A stretch of 21,003 bases of DNA from a virus. The translations under genes and the position numbers were made by a program. Shown in pieces: positions 7,154-14,566 of this stretch. Within the stretch, counting starts at the first letter, position 1, and each line of letters starts with the position of its first letter. The stretch is from positions 1 through 21,003 of the IMG/VR virus record IMGVR_UViG_3300042691_008312; one strand, written 5' to 3'. The notes below the pieces were generated by a model, which worked only from the letters and a program-made list of their open reading frames with translations, searched no databases and was not told the DNA's origin.

Positions 7154-7325
7154 TTACATTGAAGGCGTTATCGAGCTGAAACAGCGCCTGCAAGGCATCG
7201 AAGACGCTATGCTGAAGAAAGACATCCGCGGAGCGCGTCTGTTGCTTGCAGACATCCGCTTTCTAGCTGAAGAAACCGATTCGCATTTATGCAAACAGTT
7301 CCCACGGGAGACCGGGCATGGATGA
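7146..7325 (+). CDS. small unknown helical protein (59 aa)
   Basis: ATG 7146 overlaps the previous stop; the frame closes with TGA 7323-7325. The product reads MIDYIEGVIELKQRLQGIED, then MLKKDIRGARLLLADIRFLA, then EETDSHLCKQFPRETGHG. Two amphipathic helices of similar length suggest a helical hairpin or coiled-coil dimer. It overlaps the 20-residue peptide that follows by 8 bases. Overlap on both sides and a plausible sequence are the support; function unknown. Confidence 0.55.
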   Translation: MIDYIEGVIELKQRLQGIEDAMLKKDIRGARLLLADIRFLAEETDSHLCKQFPRETGHG

Positions 7326-7380
7326 GATCCTTGCGTGGACAATCATGGCAGGGCTATTCTGTCTTCCGCTGTTGCTGTAA
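7318..7380 (+). CDS. possible 20-residue single-span membrane peptide
   Basis: ATG 7318, overlapping the previous gene, runs to TAA 7378-7380. The product MDEILAWTIMAGLFCLPLLL is an acidic N-terminus followed by an unbroken hydrophobic stretch of about 16 residues, long enough to cross a membrane once. It is the last frame before 520 gene-free bases. Such a peptide could be a tiny membrane-active or leader peptide. Very short frames arise by chance, so confidence is low. Confidence 0.35.
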   Translation: MDEILAWTIMAGLFCLPLLL

Positions 7381-7860
7381 GCCCAGCGGGAGGTGGTTCA
7401 ACGCCCGCAGCCGGTCACGCCTAAACCCTGTGCGGGTGTTGTCTCCTCGGGCGGGGGCCGGTTGACAGCCGGGAAAGACCGGCACTTGACAAGCATAATT
7501 ATCGGAAGCAAACTATGAACTGTTGGCGTCGAAACCGACATCAGAGCCCTTGCTCATGCATCCCGCCCCAGTCAACTTGGGGTTTCGACCGGGGTGCAGC
7601 AGCAAGGGTTTTTTGTTTCTACGCTGACTGGCACAGAGACCTATACGTCGAATCTCGGTTCTTCTCTGTGCGAGAGCGGTAGAACGACAGCCAAAACCGC
7701 AGGCGTGCCGAATCCCTTGGCGCAGGCTTGACTCAGGTGCATGAGGTAGCAAGGGACAGCCGTAGATCGCACTAGATCTCGGTCAGCGAGATGAAGGTAC
7801 CGACGGGAGGTATTTCGCTGAGAGGACTCAACCTAACTTAATCGTTGGGTTGGGCCTCTC
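7381..7860 (+). ncRNA. candidate large structured phage RNA
   Basis: About 480 bases without a convincing gene hold a row of strong helices: GCGGG/CCCGC (7386-7390, 7404-7408); TGTTGG/CCGACA (7521-7526, 7535-7540); the long hairpin at 7547-7608; GCACAGAGA/TCTCTGTGC (7631-7639, 7663-7671); GCGGT/ACCGC (7676-7680, 7696-7700); TCCCTTG/CAAGGGA (7713-7719, 7750-7756); AGCGAGAT/ATTTCGCT (7785-7792, 7812-7819); and GAGAGG + CAACCTAAC pairing with GTTGGGTTG + CCTCTC (7820-7860). Loop bases GTCGAAA (7528-7534) complement TTTCGAC (7583-7589), a possible kissing interaction. Some helices exclude each other (7776-7781/7787-7792 against 7785-7792/7812-7819). This fits a large ornate phage RNA in the sense of ROOL or GOLLD, or a transcription-control region. 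I cannot assign it to a family. Bases 7861-7902, between this and the next gene, show nothing beyond a GGGGAGGG ribosome-binding-like run. Confidence 0.4.
7547..7614 (+). terminator. long hairpin with T-run, probable rho-independent terminator
   Basis: CCCTTGCT (7547-7554) pairs with AGCAAGGG (7601-7608), 8 perfect pairs. After a 3x3 internal loop, GCATCCC (7558-7564) pairs with GGGGTGC (7591-7597). Inside, CCCCA (7566-7570) pairs with TGGGG (7578-7582). TTTTTT (7609-7614) follows at once. It would end transcription from the early/middle genes. The same 3' arm sequence AGCAAGGG recurs at 7748-7755 and could pair with the same 5' arm, which would undo this hairpin. Confidence 0.6.
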
Positions 7861-7902
7861 TTGCTCAAATCAGGAAACACTCGGGGAGGGTTTTTCAACA
7901 TC

Positions 7903-8082
7903 ATGCAAATTTGCAAGTGTGGAGGTAAACTCCAAACCACCGAGTTAACCTACAGTTGGAGAGTTAAATGTCTCTCTTGTGGTAGGTACGAACTGTTTAA
8001 CTTACCTATCGGAGAGGAATATGCCCAAGGCAGAAACCCCGAAGAAACCCGCAGAGAAGAAGAAAACCGGCAGGCCGAGTAA
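7903..8082 (+). CDS. small zinc-ribbon protein
   Basis: The best start is ATG 7903, 12 bases after GGGGAGGG (7883-7890); the frame is open from TTG 7861, but the residues before 7903 do not look like protein. The 59-residue product begins MQICKCGGKLQT, with a second pair at VKCLSCGRYELF. C4-x-C6 and C23-x2-C26 would bind one zinc ion, a compact ribbon. The C-terminal third is highly charged (RNPEETRREEENRQ) because it shares DNA with the first 62 bases of the small terminase gene in another frame. Function unknown; placement just before the terminase genes suggests a regulatory or packaging accessory. Confidence 0.6.
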   Translation: MQICKCGGKLQTTELTYSWRVKCLSCGRYELFNLPIGEEYAQGRNPEETRREEENRQAE

Positions 8083-8640: not shown

Positions 8641-10052
8641 TCGAGATCCTCAAAGATCCTAAGACGAGGGCTGAGTTCGAGAAGCTAGCTCCGCAGGATC
8701 AGATAGCGTTTAGTTGGCGGGCGCAGTGGCTTTCTAAGGCTCATAAGCACCAGATCCTTCCTCCGGGAGACTGGTGGTCAATTTGGCTCATGCTAGCAGG
8801 CAGGGGGGCAGGCAAGACTCGAACCGCGGCAGAGCAGATTGGCTGGTGGGCTTGGTCTTATCCGAACACTCGTTGGTTGGTAGCTGCCCCTACAAGCTCT
8901 GATGTCAGGGCAACCTGCTTCGAGGGCGATTCAGGGCTACTGTCAGTTGTTCCTCCTCAGTTGGTAGCCGACTACAACAAAGCCCTACACGAACTGAAGC
9001 TGACGAACGGTAGCCTGATCAAAGGCATCCCTGCTAGTGAGCCTGAGCGTTTCCGCGGGCCACAATTCCACGGAGGGTGGTGCGACGAGCTGGCTGCTTG
9101 GGACTATCTTCAGGAAGCGTGGGATCAGATGCAGTTTGGCCTGCGCCTGAAGCTGCCTAATATGCCTACGAGGCTGATCTGTACCACGACCCCGAAGCCG
9201 AAGGATCTGATTGTCGATCTGGTCAGCAGAGAGGGTGAAGACGTAGCCCTGACGACCGCTAGCACCTACTCGAACCTCGACAACCTGTCTGACTCGTTCC
9301 GCAAACAAATTTTGCAGTACGAAGGCACGAAGCTAGGCCGTCAGGAGATCAACGCTGAGATCATCGACCCGGAAGATGGGGGAATCGTCCGCCGAGACTG
9401 GTTCAGGCTCTGGCCTGCTGGCAAAGAGTTCCCGCGGTTCGAGTACATCGTCCAAAGCTATGACTGTGCAACGTCAGAGAAGACAATCAACGATCCGACC
9501 GCGGCAGAGACGTTCGGGGTATTCAAGCCTCTTGACGGCCCGATGTCCGTGATGCTGATCGATTGCTGGCAGGATCGCCTCCAGTATCCCGAGCTTAGAG
9601 AGAAGGTTCAGGAAGAGTACGAGGTCATCTTCGGTGAGGGTAAGGACAAGAAGCGGGTGGACACGATCCTCGTTGAAGACAAGTCCGCTGGGATTTCGTT
9701 GATCCAAGACTTGAGGCGGGCGCATCTGCCTGTCGCTGCTTACAACCCCGGCAAGGCAGACAAGATCCAGAGACTGAACATCGTCTCCCACATCATCGCT
9801 CGTGGCCGGGTGTGGATCCCTGAGTCAGACAAGAGGAAGGGGTTTGTAAAAGACTGGGCCGAGCCTCTTGTGAGCCAGATCTGTTCGTTCCCTGACTCAA
9901 CCCACGACGACTTCGTCGATGCTTGTACGCAGGCTTTGAGATGGCTTAGAGATGCTGGCTGGCTAGAAGTTGATCCCCCGCCGAGAGACGACTGGGACGA
10001 GGATGATTACGTCGATACGGGGCGGAAGAGAGAGAACCCATATGCGGTTTGA
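8631..10052 (+). CDS. terL: terminase large subunit (packaging ATPase/nuclease)
   Basis: This 473-residue protein starts at GTG 8631; the frame is blocked by a stop at 8613, so no much earlier start exists. The ATPase domain has Walker A LAGRGAGKT (55-63), Walker B GGWCDE (148-153, D152-E153) and the coupling motif TTTPK (185-189). The nuclease domain has three acidic clusters: D278 (SYDCA), E349-D350 (VEDKSAG) and D426-D427/D430 (THDDFVDA), the RNase H-like metal site. It cuts concatemeric phage DNA and drives it into the prohead through the portal. Length is normal. The gene ends in a very acidic tail (DDWDEDDYVD) and overlaps a possible ATG of the next frame. Confidence 0.97.
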   Translation: MDVVEILKDPKTRAEFEKLAPQDQIAFSWRAQWLSKAHKHQILPPGDWWSIWLMLAGRGAGKTRTAAEQIGWWAWSYPNTRWLVAAPTSSDVRATCFEGDSGLLSVVPPQLVADYNKALHELKLTNGSLIKGIPASEPERFRGPQFHGGWCDELAAWDYLQEAWDQMQFGLRLKLPNMPTRLICTTTPKPKDLIVDLVSREGEDVALTTASTYSNLDNLSDSFRKQILQYEGTKLGRQEINAEIIDPEDGGIVRRDWFRLWPAGKEFPRFEYIVQSYDCATSEKTINDPTAAETFGVFKPLDGPMSVMLIDCWQDRLQYPELREKVQEEYEVIFGEGKDKKRVDTILVEDKSAGISLIQDLRRAHLPVAAYNPGKADKIQRLNIVSHIIARGRVWIPESDKRKGFVKDWAEPLVSQICSFPDSTHDDFVDACTQALRWLRDAGWLEVDPPPRDDWDEDDYVDTGRKRENPYAV

Positions 10053-10099
10053 TGGACTTGACTGCCCCCAAAAGTTATGATGCGGGCAAGGAGATTCCT

Positions 10100-13000
10100 A
10101 TGAACGACGAAATCAAAATCATCGCCGACCAGTTAATGCAGAGCGGCATGGAGATGGACTCCGCCATAGATGAGGCGATTCGTCTTTCTAGGCAACCAAG
10201 CGAAGAAGATCTCAGGTTGCAAGACCTTGAAGATCAAGTGATGGGGCGCTCTCGTCCGTATAAGCGAGGCGAGCGCATGTTAAGGCTGCTAGACCCATCG
10301 CAAGACCCGCTGACGGGTGAGCGCAACATCCGTGACTTTGGCAGGCAGAAGATCGCTAACATTATTCCCGGCATGACGCTGATCGGAAGAGAGAAGGTGT
10401 TTCAAGGCCATAACCCGTTGTACAACCTTCTTCAGGAAGCAAACCGGGTCAGCAAGGCGTATCACGGCCAAGATTATCTAAAAGAACTCCATCACCGTGT
10501 CATGCAAGCCGGTAGAGGGCGAGTAGATAAAGATTTTGGATACGAGTCGTCGTTTGCAGACGGCGGGCAAGTGTTTGCGTCAGATACCGACAAAATCGCA
10601 CAAAAACTGATTGAGCAAGGGCTAGACCGAGAGACGGCTATGGCTGCTGCTCTAAGGATGGCCCAAAGCCGCCAACAGGCGAACGAATCTATTCTGGGTG
10701 GTGTTCCTACCCAGCCGCCGACATCGGACGTTCCCCCGGCCACAGAGATCCTTGGCGGCGATCCTTCGAGGCTGTTCCAACGACAGCCGACGGCAATGGA
10801 GAGGATCAGAGACCTTCCTAAAGACGTACTCGGTGCTGGCGAGGCTCTAGTGTCGATGGGATCGCTGGCTGCTCTAGCGCCTGCGTCAATGCTGTACGCT
10901 CTCAGGCCGGGCCAAAAGACCCAAGGCGACCCGATGGAGTTCGCCCTGCGGAATATGTATATGCCGCGGTCAGAACGTGGCCCGAGCCATCTAGCGGGGC
11001 TTGGAGAAGTTCTGGAGTCGCTTCCTCAGACCGGGCCATTGCCTGAGCTGCAAGCGTTTACAGGAGTTGGTAGGGGTGTCGGCAGGCAACTAGCGGAGAA
11101 GGGTAGGCAAGCCGGTGAAGCGATGGCTCCTAAAGCCGGTGAAATGATGGACGCCTATATGAGGCGTACAGGGATGGCGTTGGAGATGTCGCCCGAACAA
11201 AATTTAACAGGAACTTTGTATGAAACAAGACAAGAAGGCCCGTTCTACCGAGTCAAACCGCGGTCTGCTCAAGCGGCTCGACCAAAGGATCGGGGAGTTC
11301 GAGAAGAAGTACGGCAAGCCGACCCTGTCGGAGGATCAGGTGGAAGCGATGTTCCGCAACCAGTATCGGACGAGGCGATCAGCCTACTGATCAAAGACCC
11401 GTCGAACTTCGTTTACCGCACGGCGGACGACTACAGTCAGCGGGTGACCGGGCAAAGATACCAACTGCCGCAGATGCCGCCATCAAGCCTTGCCAAGCAG
11501 TCGGCCATCGGTCGCACCTTCCAGTTGGCAGCCGATGGCGACGACGCCTACAAGAAGTCGGTCTTCGAGGCATATGGCAGGCGCTACCCTGAACTGGTTG
11601 AGGCCACGGGCGCGAAGAATTACGACCAGTTGCTGGAAGCGTCCTACCGCCAGTTGGCCAAGGAGACCGCCGATCAGTTCCGCGCTCTGCCGGTCAATAT
11701 GTCCTATCACCGCGCCGGAGAGGGTAACTACCAGTCCAGCGGCGAAATGCTCAAGGACATCTACGGCAACCGGCACTTGTATGTCTACCAAGGTGGTGCC
11801 CCGCACGACTTCCTGAACGCCATCGATCCAGAGACTGGCCTGAACACCAACGAGATGTTCCGGGCCATCCACGATTTCTACGGGCACGCCGTCCACGGCA
11901 ACCCGTTCGGCCCCAAGGGTGAGGAGATCGCCTTCGGTGCTCACGCCCAGATGTTCTCGCCCCTTGCACGCATGGCGATGGCCAGCGAAACCCGGGGCCA
12001 GAACTCGTTCGTGAACTACACCCCGGTCAACGCCGAACTCAAGCAGCGCATCAACCGCCTGAACGAGGCCCGCTACGAGGCCAACCGGCGCGGCCAAACG
12101 GCGGATGTGGCCGAGATCGACAAGTTGCTGGGCGAGGCATGGCAGGGCTTCCAGTTTGCGCCTCAGAAGAGCGTGCTGCTGCCGCCCGAGTTCGTGGACA
12201 CCGCCTACACCGGCGGGATGCCGGGCTACATCCAACCGCTGATCCGACCCGAGCCGGGCACGACGGCCTCGGAGATGCTGACCCACTTCAGCCATTCGCC
12301 CGACCTCCAGATGCTCGACCCGACCCGGTACGGCACCGGCATCAAGGGCCGCGAGATGGAGCGCCTGCTGGGCACGCAGAACCCGGTGATGGAGCGCACC
12401 TACGCCTACACCGGCGACCCGTCCCGCGTTCGCCCTGAACCCGGTCTGGGCCGGTTCCGCTACGGCACCCGCAGCGAGGGCCTGTACGACCTTTCCGCTG
12501 ACCCGCTGCTGCTTCGCACGCTGGCAGCCGAGGCCAACCGCACGCCCTTCACCGCCAAGTACAACAAGGGCATGGCCGACCCGACCCAAGCCTTCACCGA
12601 TGTGGAGCGCATGGCCAAGGAGTACGGCTACGAGGGTCTGATGAACCCGCAGCAGGGTACGGCTATCCTGTACCACCCGACACCTATTACGCCGTTCAAA
12701 AAAGGCGGCTCAGTCAACCATAAAGCCGTAGCTTCAGCCCGTAGAGCCTTAGAGAAGGCAATGGCTAAGGGTGGCGAAGTCAAGATGGGAACCGGCGGCA
12801 GTATGCTGGGAACTGTTGCAGGGCGGGCTGCTGCTGCTGGCAAGAAAAGCACTCAATGGGCACAGGAGGCTGCTGCTGCAAAGAGAGCGCCAGCAAAGTC
12901 AAAGGAAGAGATTGAGGCGATAGCAAGGCGCATGGCCGCTCAGACACAGCCCGGATTTGTGAGGGCATCTGAAGAGCAGTCGATCAACCCTGCTGGCAAA

Positions 13001-14566
13001 TCTCAGTTGTTGTATGAGATGGAGCAGCGCACGCCGATGGTGGTTGAAAGCACGATAGCGGATCGGCCAGTGCCTAACGTGGATTATGAGCAGCAGCTTG
13101 GCAAAGTGATCGTAGGCGTGCCGGGTGATCCGACTATGGGGCAGGTTGCCGTACCGGGGAGCTTGGACGCCCCGACAAGAGGCGGCAAGCAGTTAGTGCA
13201 AGTCGGGGATGTGAGGCCAGAAACGCCGGTGCAGTTGTATGGAGGCCCGCAGTATGGCGCTAACTTAGACGAGACCTTCTGGGCTTCTAACCTGAGTCCT
13301 GCGAGAGCCGTTCAGAATCTTGTGCAAGAGATGGCGCAAAAGTATGGCGCAGAGCAGGTTCTAGGCAAGTACATCAAGATGTCGCCTGAAAGCTCTAGGT
13401 TTGCAATGCACAATCTGGACGCTCTGATATCAGTGCTTCAACCAGAAAAGCTAGACAAAGACAAAGTTGAGTTATTGAACAACTTAGTCAGGAAGGGCAA
13501 CCCGAAGAATAAGTTTCCCGAGTTTGCTGGGTTTGAAGACCCGATAAATGTGTTGTTGCAAGCTCAGATGAACTCGAAGCTTCGTAAACAGATCTCTGAA
13601 GTGTTAGAGAAGCCATCTGTTGCTAAACAAGTCGGCTTCCCGTTTCCCGGCAAGGTTGTGCAAACGGCGATTACAGAGCCTGAGTTGCGTAACGTTGAAA
13701 CAGGTGTAACTGGGTTTGCGATGGGCAAAATGAACCCAGAGGGGAAACTTAGCTTTTCAAGTCATCCGACCTACGACTATGACATTCCGGGGCAGGCGAT
13801 TGGAAGATCAAAGTATTTGATTCCGTCAGAGCTGTCGTTCCCAGACTTTATGGCTTGGTATCGGTCACGGCCAGATGTTCAAGCTAAAGTTGACCCGATC
13901 AACATGATGAAGAGCTACGGCCCGCGGCAAGTAATCGATCAGCAGTACATCGACGAAATTAAGATGTATGAAGAGGCTATGAAGCAACTGACCGGCAGAA
14001 AGAAAGGCGGTGCAGTGAAAATGGCAGGCGGTGGTGCGTTATCAAAAGCTGCGGCAGCGGCAGCAAAGAATTCAAAGTCTTTGCGTGAACCAATTTTAAT
14101 AAATCCGAAATCACTAACGTTTAGGGAATCTGACCAAAATCGACTACAAGAGGTTCGTAATTTATTTCCTAAAGACACGCCTATGAATCCGATAGTTGCT
14201 ATTCAAGAGCCAGATGGTTCCTTGGTTATTCTTGATGGGCATAATCGTGCAGTAGTGGCGGCAGAGCGCAAGCAAAAGTTGCCAATGGTTTCTGTTACAA
14301 GACAAGAATACGAAGATTTAACAAATCGTGGGTTTGACGATATGGAAATATCATTTGCGGCTTTAACAAGAACCAAGCAAGATGAAGCCGCATCAGATTT
14401 GAATCGACAATTTCCCGGCGCGGATGTAGGTGGTCGTGGAATGTCTGCGTGGATGAATTTGCCTGACGTTGAAGAAGCTCCTGTTGTTAGTGGCGCGGTA
14501 AAATCGACCGATATTACAAAACGCAAGGGCGGCAAAGTTGGCGGCTTATCCGCCTTGAGGAAATAA
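10100..14566 (+). CDS. giant multidomain phage protein with C-terminal ParB/Srx-like motif
   Basis: I chose ATG 10100, 6 bases after AAGGAG (10088-10093), over ATG 10052, which has no good site; the product is 1488 aa. Two similar helical segments open it (IIADQLMQSGMEMDSAIDEA; KIAQKLIEQGLDRETAMAAA). Residues about 500-680 contain HDFYGHA (591-597), FGPKGEE and SETRGQNSFVNY, a motif set I associate with large polyvalent phage proteins. Residues about 727-860 (LTHFSHSPDLQMLDP ... GYEGLMNP) look like a separate, possibly ADP-ribosyltransferase-related, domain; this is uncertain. A third block includes SFSSHPTYDYDIPG. ILDGHNRAVVAAERK (1377-1391) is ParB/Srx-like. Motifs (K/D)GG-x-V occur at 152-158, 866-872, 889-894, 1301-1306 and 1476-1480. 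Base composition changes in blocks, so the gene looks assembled from modules. Position between terL and portal suggests a virion-associated or injected protein; not shown. Confidence 0.8.
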   Translation: MNDEIKIIADQLMQSGMEMDSAIDEAIRLSRQPSEEDLRLQDLEDQVMGRSRPYKRGERMLRLLDPSQDPLTGERNIRDFGRQKIANIIPGMTLIGREKVFQGHNPLYNLLQEANRVSKAYHGQDYLKELHHRVMQAGRGRVDKDFGYESSFADGGQVFASDTDKIAQKLIEQGLDRETAMAAALRMAQSRQQANESILGGVPTQPPTSDVPPATEILGGDPSRLFQRQPTAMERIRDLPKDVLGAGEALVSMGSLAALAPASMLYALRPGQKTQGDPMEFALRNMYMPRSERGPSHLAGLGEVLESLPQTGPLPELQAFTGVGRGVGRQLAEKGRQAGEAMAPKAGEMMDAYMRRTGMALEMSPEQNLTGTLYETRQEGPFYRVKPRSAQAARPKDRGVREEVRQADPVGGSGGSDVPQPVSDEAISLLIKDPSNFVYRTADDYSQRVTGQRYQLPQMPPSSLAKQSAIGRTFQLAADGDDAYKKSVFEAYGRRYPELVEATGAKNYDQLLEASYRQLAKETADQFRALPVNMSYHRAGEGNYQSSGEMLKDIYGNRHLYVYQGGAPHDFLNAIDPETGLNTNEMFRAIHDFYGHAVHGNPFGPKGEEIAFGAHAQMFSPLARMAMASETRGQNSFVNYTPVNAELKQRINRLNEARYEANRRGQTADVAEIDKLLGEAWQGFQFAPQKSVLLPPEFVDTAYTGGMPGYIQPLIRPEPGTTASEMLTHFSHSPDLQMLDPTRYGTGIKGREMERLLGTQNPVMERTYAYTGDPSRVRPEPGLGRFRYGTRSEGLYDLSADPLLLRTLAAEANRTPFTAKYNKGMADPTQAFTDVERMAKEYGYEGLMNPQQGTAILYHPTPITPFKKGGSVNHKAVASARRALEKAMAKGGEVKMGTGGSMLGTVAGRAAAAGKKSTQWAQEAAAAKRAPAKSKEEIEAIARRMAAQTQPGFVRASEEQSINPAGKSQLLYEMEQRTPMVVESTIADRPVPNVDYEQQLGKVIVGVPGDPTMGQVAVPGSLDAPTRGGKQLVQVGDVRPETPVQLYGGPQYGANLDETFWASNLSPARAVQNLVQEMAQKYGAEQVLGKYIKMSPESSRFAMHNLDALISVLQPEKLDKDKVELLNNLVRKGNPKNKFPEFAGFEDPINVLLQAQMNSKLRKQISEVLEKPSVAKQVGFPFPGKVVQTAITEPELRNVETGVTGFAMGKMNPEGKLSFSSHPTYDYDIPGQAIGRSKYLIPSELSFPDFMAWYRSRPDVQAKVDPINMMKSYGPRQVIDQQYIDEIKMYEEAMKQLTGRKKGGAVKMAGGGALSKAAAAAAKNSKSLREPILINPKSLTFRESDQNRLQEVRNLFPKDTPMNPIVAIQEPDGSLVILDGHNRAVVAAERKQKLPMVSVTRQEYEDLTNRGFDDMEISFAALTRTKQDEAASDLNRQFPGADVGGRGMSAWMNLPDVEEAPVVSGAVKSTDITKRKGGKVGGLSALRK
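11220..11390 (+). CDS. possible overprinted 56-residue ORF inside the giant gene
   Basis: In a different + frame from the host gene, ATG 11220 follows AGGA (11209-11212) by 7 bases and runs to TGA 11388-11390. The product begins MKQDKKARSTESNRGLLKRL, continues DQRIGEFEKKYGKPTLSEDQ and ends FRNQYRTRRSAY. It reads like a natural basic helical protein. In the same stretch the giant frame is low-complexity (about residues 380-425, rich in R, G, P, S, Q). It may be a true overlapping gene, or the stub of a gene joined into the giant one when the GC-rich block was acquired. Confidence 0.3.
   Translation: MKQDKKARSTESNRGLLKRLDQRIGEFEKKYGKPTLSEDQVEAMFRNQYRTRRSAY

Follow-up and report, generated by a model that had tools for sequence, protein, structure and literature searches.

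A mosaic of structured RNAs, with a candidate attenuated small RNA, in the gap between early and late genes of a phage

Comparison with related sequences indicates that the gap between the early and the late genes of this phage (positions 7381-7860 of the window, by which we mean the whole 21,003-base stretch analyzed, a virus record of its own) is composed of several structured RNAs that are independent of one another, a mosaic whose parts are referred to as modules A, B and C, and not of one ornate RNA. The explanation that we favor, to which we assign a probability of about one half, is that module B combines a small RNA with an attenuator and that module A is a separate leader RNA that would be read by a universal factor. 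The relatives used for comparison are largely metagenomic contigs. The features of the region are the following:

7386-7483, plus strand: module A, a three-stem RNA
7386-7390/7404-7408: stem P1 of module A, loop GGUGG..AAC
7410-7415/7457-7462: stem P2 of module A (P3 is the hairpin on the next line)
7463-7484, plus strand: hairpin UGACA-GCCG-GGAAAGAC-CGGC-A, common to phages of many bacterial phyla
7486-7628: module B, consisting of a sigma70-like promoter, a pseudoknotted RNA of ~93 nt and an intrinsic terminator
7486-7514, plus strand: predicted sigma70-like promoter, -35 TTGACA at 7486-7491 and weak -10 CAAACT at 7509-7514
7522-7614, plus strand: module B RNA, an H-type pseudoknot, with its presumed start at 7522 (GUUG) and its presumed end at the U-run
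7522-7535, plus strand: segment X, GTTGGCGTCGAAAC, with three alternatives, H1 (7522-7526/7535-7539), Y and Z
7547-7614, plus strand: predicted intrinsic terminator, outer stem 7547-7554/7601-7608, middle stem 7557-7564/7591-7598, inner stem 7566-7569/7579-7582, U6 at 7609-7614
7583-7589, plus strand: segment Y, TTTCGAC, within the terminator hairpin; its partner is X 7528-7534
7615-7628, plus strand: segment Z, GTTTCTACGCTGAC, located 3' of the U-run; can pair with X at 13 of 14 positions
7629-7860, plus strand: module C, a putative noncoding leader with a strong hairpin at 7821-7860

Composition of the gap between early and late genes

The gap begins after a 20-aa ORF (7318-7380) and extends to an ATG at 7903. 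On its early side lie genes for DUF1376/primosomal proteins, a DnaB-like helicase, RusA and a PDDEXK nuclease, and on its late side those for the small and large terminase subunits, portal and capsid. The 20-aa ORF, which adjoins module A, is hydrophobic (MDEILAWTIMAGLFCLPLLL) and is retained, with conservative changes, in loci L002 and L003. A small zinc-ribbon-like ORF (CKCGG..CLSCG; 7903-8082), present in L002 too, lies upstream of the small terminase gene, and positions 7883-7889 read better as the Shine-Dalgarno sequence of ATG 7903 than as an attenuator arm. Farther downstream, in the terminase-portal interval, a 1505-aa ORF (10049-14566) contains repeated GGxV-type segments and has no match in Pfam.

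Within 7381-7860 we found no convincing protein, the overlapping ORFs all being short and unconvincing. The stretch has a fold energy of -210.1 kcal/mol, compared with -175.7 (sd 5.9) for its shuffles (z -5.9), and none of 100 shuffles folded as well. Hence, dense RNA structure without a real gene, as proposed in a previous sequence-only reading together with a comparison to shuffled sequence as a check, is borne out. The minus strand folds less strongly (z -3.8). When the parts are considered separately, z is -6.2 for module B, -4.4 for 7740-7860, +0.5 for 7633-7740 and -1.4 for module A, so that the value for the whole stretch is driven by module B and 7740-7860. The terminase relatives align to the region piecewise: L002 over the full length, L003 and L004 with ~245 nt inserted after 7484, and L016, L027 and L042 only over ~7522-7625. 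This shows that the region is modular, and the earlier treatment of it as a single unit gives way to several units.

The type of module C present in the window is common only to L002 and L441 among the loci compared, and in these three close sequences most of its helices could be due to chance, which for modules A and B is refuted. Thirty-four of 41 downstream regions form one similarity cluster, unrelated to module C of the window. Downstream of module B in L017, L021, L048, L067 and L422 there are ~220 nt with conserved blocks, closed by CGGTGGTG/CACCACCG, likely a structured RNA that replaces the module C type of the window. A second attenuator formed by 7821-7860 and 7855-7889 was considered and rejected, as its terminator arm looks weak.

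Module B as a portable cassette with three alternative pairings

The -10 box of the module B promoter is better in the relatives than in the window, and in the relatives 6-7 nt separate the end of the -35/-10 pair from GUUG, a spacing that is kept. The RNA that would follow is almost fully paired across the alignment (99.8% of cells, n=25 sequences; covariance model R2, 101 bits). The outer and middle stems of the terminator are paired in 100% of cases, and eight of the 11 pairs in the lower terminator stem are double-changed (both n=25 sequences). Directly 3' of this covarying GC-rich stem, nearly all members retain the U-run, and a promoter and a terminator are present in every member inspected. 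A GC-rich hairpin directly before a U-run and kept in relatives is the mark of an intrinsic terminator, and we therefore predict one here; it corresponds to the terminator-like hairpin with six T residues that had been noticed before (outer stem 7547-7554/7601-7608 with further helices inside it, and U6 at 7609-7614). The 8-mer AGCAAGGG indeed occurs twice, at 7601 and 7748, and both copies are complementary to 7547-7554, but the second is unsupported by the relatives and may be due to chance. A micro-ORF starting from a conserved AUG in CUCAUGC was rejected, since its stops and frame vary between members (by eye).

The 5' segment X can enter three pairings, H1, X-Y and X-Z, that are mutually exclusive, in agreement with the helices excluding one another in the sequence-only reading, and two of them covary (alignments were made by MAFFT, and the shuffle controls given here and below ignore relatedness among the sequences). 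The loop contact 7528-7534/7583-7589 proposed in that reading, which is X-Y, is paired in 98.6% of cells in 10 sequences, with seven double changes and 0 of 500 shuffles reaching this level, and in 99.4% in 25 sequences. X-Z is paired in 92.8% of cells (n=10 sequences, eight double changes, 2 of 500 shuffles), and H1 shows few changes only. Because the search pattern for module B had fixed most of Y, we compared own with swapped partners in 46 sequences, 15 of which had not been chosen by the Y pattern, with 20 distinct X. Own partners were better than swapped ones for both X-Y and X-Z, and 0 of 5000 permutations reached the own-partner mean. L048 and L067 have a quite different X, yet matching Y and Z. 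The region had also been called switchable, and for this module B provides good support: besides a predicted promoter and terminator of its own, it has three alternative pairings, of which two covary strongly.

The covariance model detects one good forward copy of module B per record in 20 of 25 records; weaker hits on the reverse strand result from the hairpin being read backwards. Module B starts roughly 27-60 nt after TerL in nine terminase relatives, and elsewhere it precedes replication-, exonuclease-, methylase- or capsid-like operons (by eye, from predicted protein starts). The single copy per record and the variable genome position suggest a portable small-RNA/attenuator cassette, and not only a late-gene switch. 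The label early-to-late thus holds for where the cassette is placed in this phage, but not for those relatives in which it follows TerL or precedes operons of other kinds. In L049, L056, L068, L074 and L079 the place of module B, about 1 kb upstream of TerL, is occupied by another long hairpin with a U-run (up to 18 bp), and weak module A hits lie just upstream of it.

Module B is most likely an attenuated small RNA. Most transcripts would stop at the U-run, yielding a stable small RNA whose 5' end is held in the X-Y helix, while those that read through would refold, with X pairing to Z, and have a closed 5' domain before module C and the downstream genes. Being located 3' of the U-run, Z cannot determine whether transcription terminates and would act only on RNA that has already been read through. 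It should be noted that, with a strong terminator at 90 nt from the start, the RNA may simply end there, which leaves Z hard to explain, and that a conserved Z could mean that the functional RNA is the longer form.

Module A and the UGACA hairpin

The fold of module A is, in terms of aligned sequences, demonstrated by covariation and not by energy (z -1.4): in 15 sequences 98.3% of cells in its stems are paired, with 41 double changes versus 9.7 in shuffles, and 0 of 500 shuffles reached this number. Covariance model R1 gives 70 bits for the window, 70-90 bits for the window and nine terminase-relative loci, some of them near-identical, and 57-94 bits for six unrelated loci. Module A is absent from many records with module B and is an RNA independent of it, which would be transcribed from upstream. 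The nearest long downstream ORFs are on the same strand in 193 cases and on the opposite one in 32 (simple ORF calls, among the matches listed), and the proteins downstream of UGACA-hairpin/module A loci are mostly unrelated to each other. Module A therefore looks like mainly a leader element that is not bound to one gene. A role as a 3'-end element was rejected because the same-strand bias is stronger downstream, and a pseudoknot between the P1 loop and CUCC because it is inconsistent across members.

The third stem of module A is far more widespread than the module. UGACA-stem-GGAAAGAC-stem-A occurs at more than 200 distinct places in phage or bacterial genomes of many phyla, with exact copies in named phages, at least 120 IMG/VR stretches and at least 118 genome stretches. 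The latter, among the matches listed, come from Proteobacteria, Bacteroidota, Firmicutes, Spirochaetes, Patescibacteria and others, and are presumably prophages. BLAST of the region against named phages gave nothing at 1e-5, and at E up to 10 the only recurrent match was this hairpin (23 nt). Among the matches listed, the free stem position forms a standard pair in 247 of 249 distinct hits. A stem-free scan gave 107 distinct hits, of which 73 have the full 4-bp stem (21 different sequences) and 17 have none. Again among the matches listed, nearby sister hairpins (at least 3 bp) share the strand of the first one in 56 cases and lie on the other in 0, the tRNAs found within 1 kb have the orientation of the hairpin in 89 of 89 cases, and 17 tRNAs start 1-6 nt after it. 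A local upstream stem ending two bases before GACA is seen in 30% of distinct cases versus ~5-16% at other offsets (matches listed). One case is located in a convergent gap after an integrase. A terminator role was rejected, as a U-run follows only 27 of 331 hairpins, and so was a lambda nut role, there being no boxA enrichment around 281 hairpins (both among the matches listed). Lambda boxB is a small hairpin with a GA-rich loop and a stem like GCCC/GGGC. The UGACA hairpin resembles it in its small size, GA-rich loop and similar stem, and differs in its six-nt loop GAAAGA, the conserved UGACA before it and the lack of boxA enrichment.

Phages of many phyla retain the loop and the flank of the hairpin but differ in its stem, which points to a universal bacterial reader. 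The hairpin would most likely be read by something present in all bacteria, be it RNA polymerase, the ribosome or a general processing enzyme, and module A would act as a leader signal for such a common factor. More tentatively, at odds clearly below even, the hairpin may be a pan-bacterial phage RNA signal for a universal host machine (RNA polymerase, ribosome), with which phages of many phyla mark noncoding RNAs, arrays of tRNAs and the leaders of operons; module A would then represent one of several classes of RNA with this hairpin at their end.

Several other sequences accompany the hairpin. A recurring element, AACACGCATGRGGATTGG.., is found directly 3' of it in L003 (2364-2620) and also in L007, L010, L057, L098 and L180, and probably represents another structured RNA module in these noncoding islands. 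The unrelated phages mEp390 (L081) and DIBBI (L333) have a common second block, CAAACGGGAAAGG..GGCCGATGAGTTCAA..GGCAATAAAGAAC, before the hairpin, and the pre-terminase gap of DIBBI is filled with tRNA-like stretches. The hairpin loop GGAAAGAC (window 7472-7479; letters GGAAAGACC) equals the segment of 23S rRNA around A2058 (PMC7449152); mimicry of A2058 was considered, but the identity may be a coincidence.

Known systems and alternative explanations

No family of Rfam 15 matched the window at the curated threshold, and a search of 7280-7980 with E relaxed to 10 yielded nothing relevant; on 18 UGACA loci tRNA alone was detected, and on 14 module B loci no family. With no Rfam match for any module, a large RNA like ROOL, GOLLD or HEARO, one of the two options initially offered, is not supported. 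The modules share with these RNAs being structured and located in phage intergenic regions near tRNAs, but are much smaller, separate and without a covariance-model match. The open-access literature, in the part covered, contains no description of these motifs, and their novelty is judged mainly from the lack of an Rfam match. Attenuators and riboswitch-type leaders resemble module B in having alternative helices around a terminator; they differ in that Z of module B follows the U-run and that no ligand or peptide is known for it.

An unlikely alternative to the attenuated small RNA is that B and C form, by read-through, one large ornate RNA (~330 nt), whose 5' domain is closed by X-Z and in which the terminator is an internal hairpin. 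Such an RNA would account for the covariation of Z with X, for the noncoding DNA of about 290 nt or more that follows module B in most members, and for the clustering of 34 of 41 downstream regions; it is at odds with the U-run kept after a covarying GC-rich stem in nearly all members, with the different type of module C in the window and with the lack of an Rfam match. We regard as improbable a late leader as in lambda (pR', 6S RNA, tR'), where a phage antiterminator protein such as Q would switch on the late genes, even though module B lies between early genes and terminase and, like that leader, has a constitutive-looking promoter, a short RNA and an intrinsic terminator upstream of late genes. 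An element of the pR'-tR' kind would always be placed before the late operon, whereas in relatives module B is found after TerL or before other operons; its portability, its covarying pseudoknot, which lambda is not known to need, and its third partner Z also set it apart. Among the window proteins scanned no antiterminator was recognised, many small early proteins being unassigned or outside this set. Still less probable is a replication-origin primer, as RNA II of ColE1: there is one copy per record and the three-way pairing recalls alpha/beta/gamma of RNA II, but five longer records have no GC-skew extreme at module B, a weak test given that the skew is mostly one-way.

For module A, it is unlikely, though worth considering, that it acts through the UGACA hairpin as an RNA antiterminator on RNA polymerase. 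The put RNA of HK022 is a phage leader of about 70-100 nt with adjacent stem-loops (PMC9378689), and module A is alike in its leader position and strand bias and in its adjacent stems with a short linker; its wide host range would fit a universal target such as RNA polymerase. In contrast to put, module A is built of three stems and carries UGACA/GGAAAGAC as its signature, and an action on RNA polymerase, for a put RNA through binding to the zinc-binding domain of beta', is hypothetical for it. Also against it, GGAAAGAC occurs in HK022 24-34 kb at chance level (a comparison of the loop sequence and not of the whole put), there is no boxA nearby, and the hairpin is located in one case in a convergent gap after an integrase and in others 1-6 nt before tRNAs. 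Finally, that the helices reflect chance or the base composition of a GC-rich gap is hardly credible: module A and 7633-7740 do fold no better than shuffles, but an alignment check for compensating changes, as originally suggested, showed modules A and B to covary far more than shuffled and slid controls do.

Structured phage RNAs are already known, and the large ornate ones are still without functions. To these, modules A and B add two compact, strongly covarying RNA families, both absent from Rfam. The tiny hairpin in phages of many bacterial phyla implies a common reader, and module B would be a cassette, present once per record, with a three-way switch.
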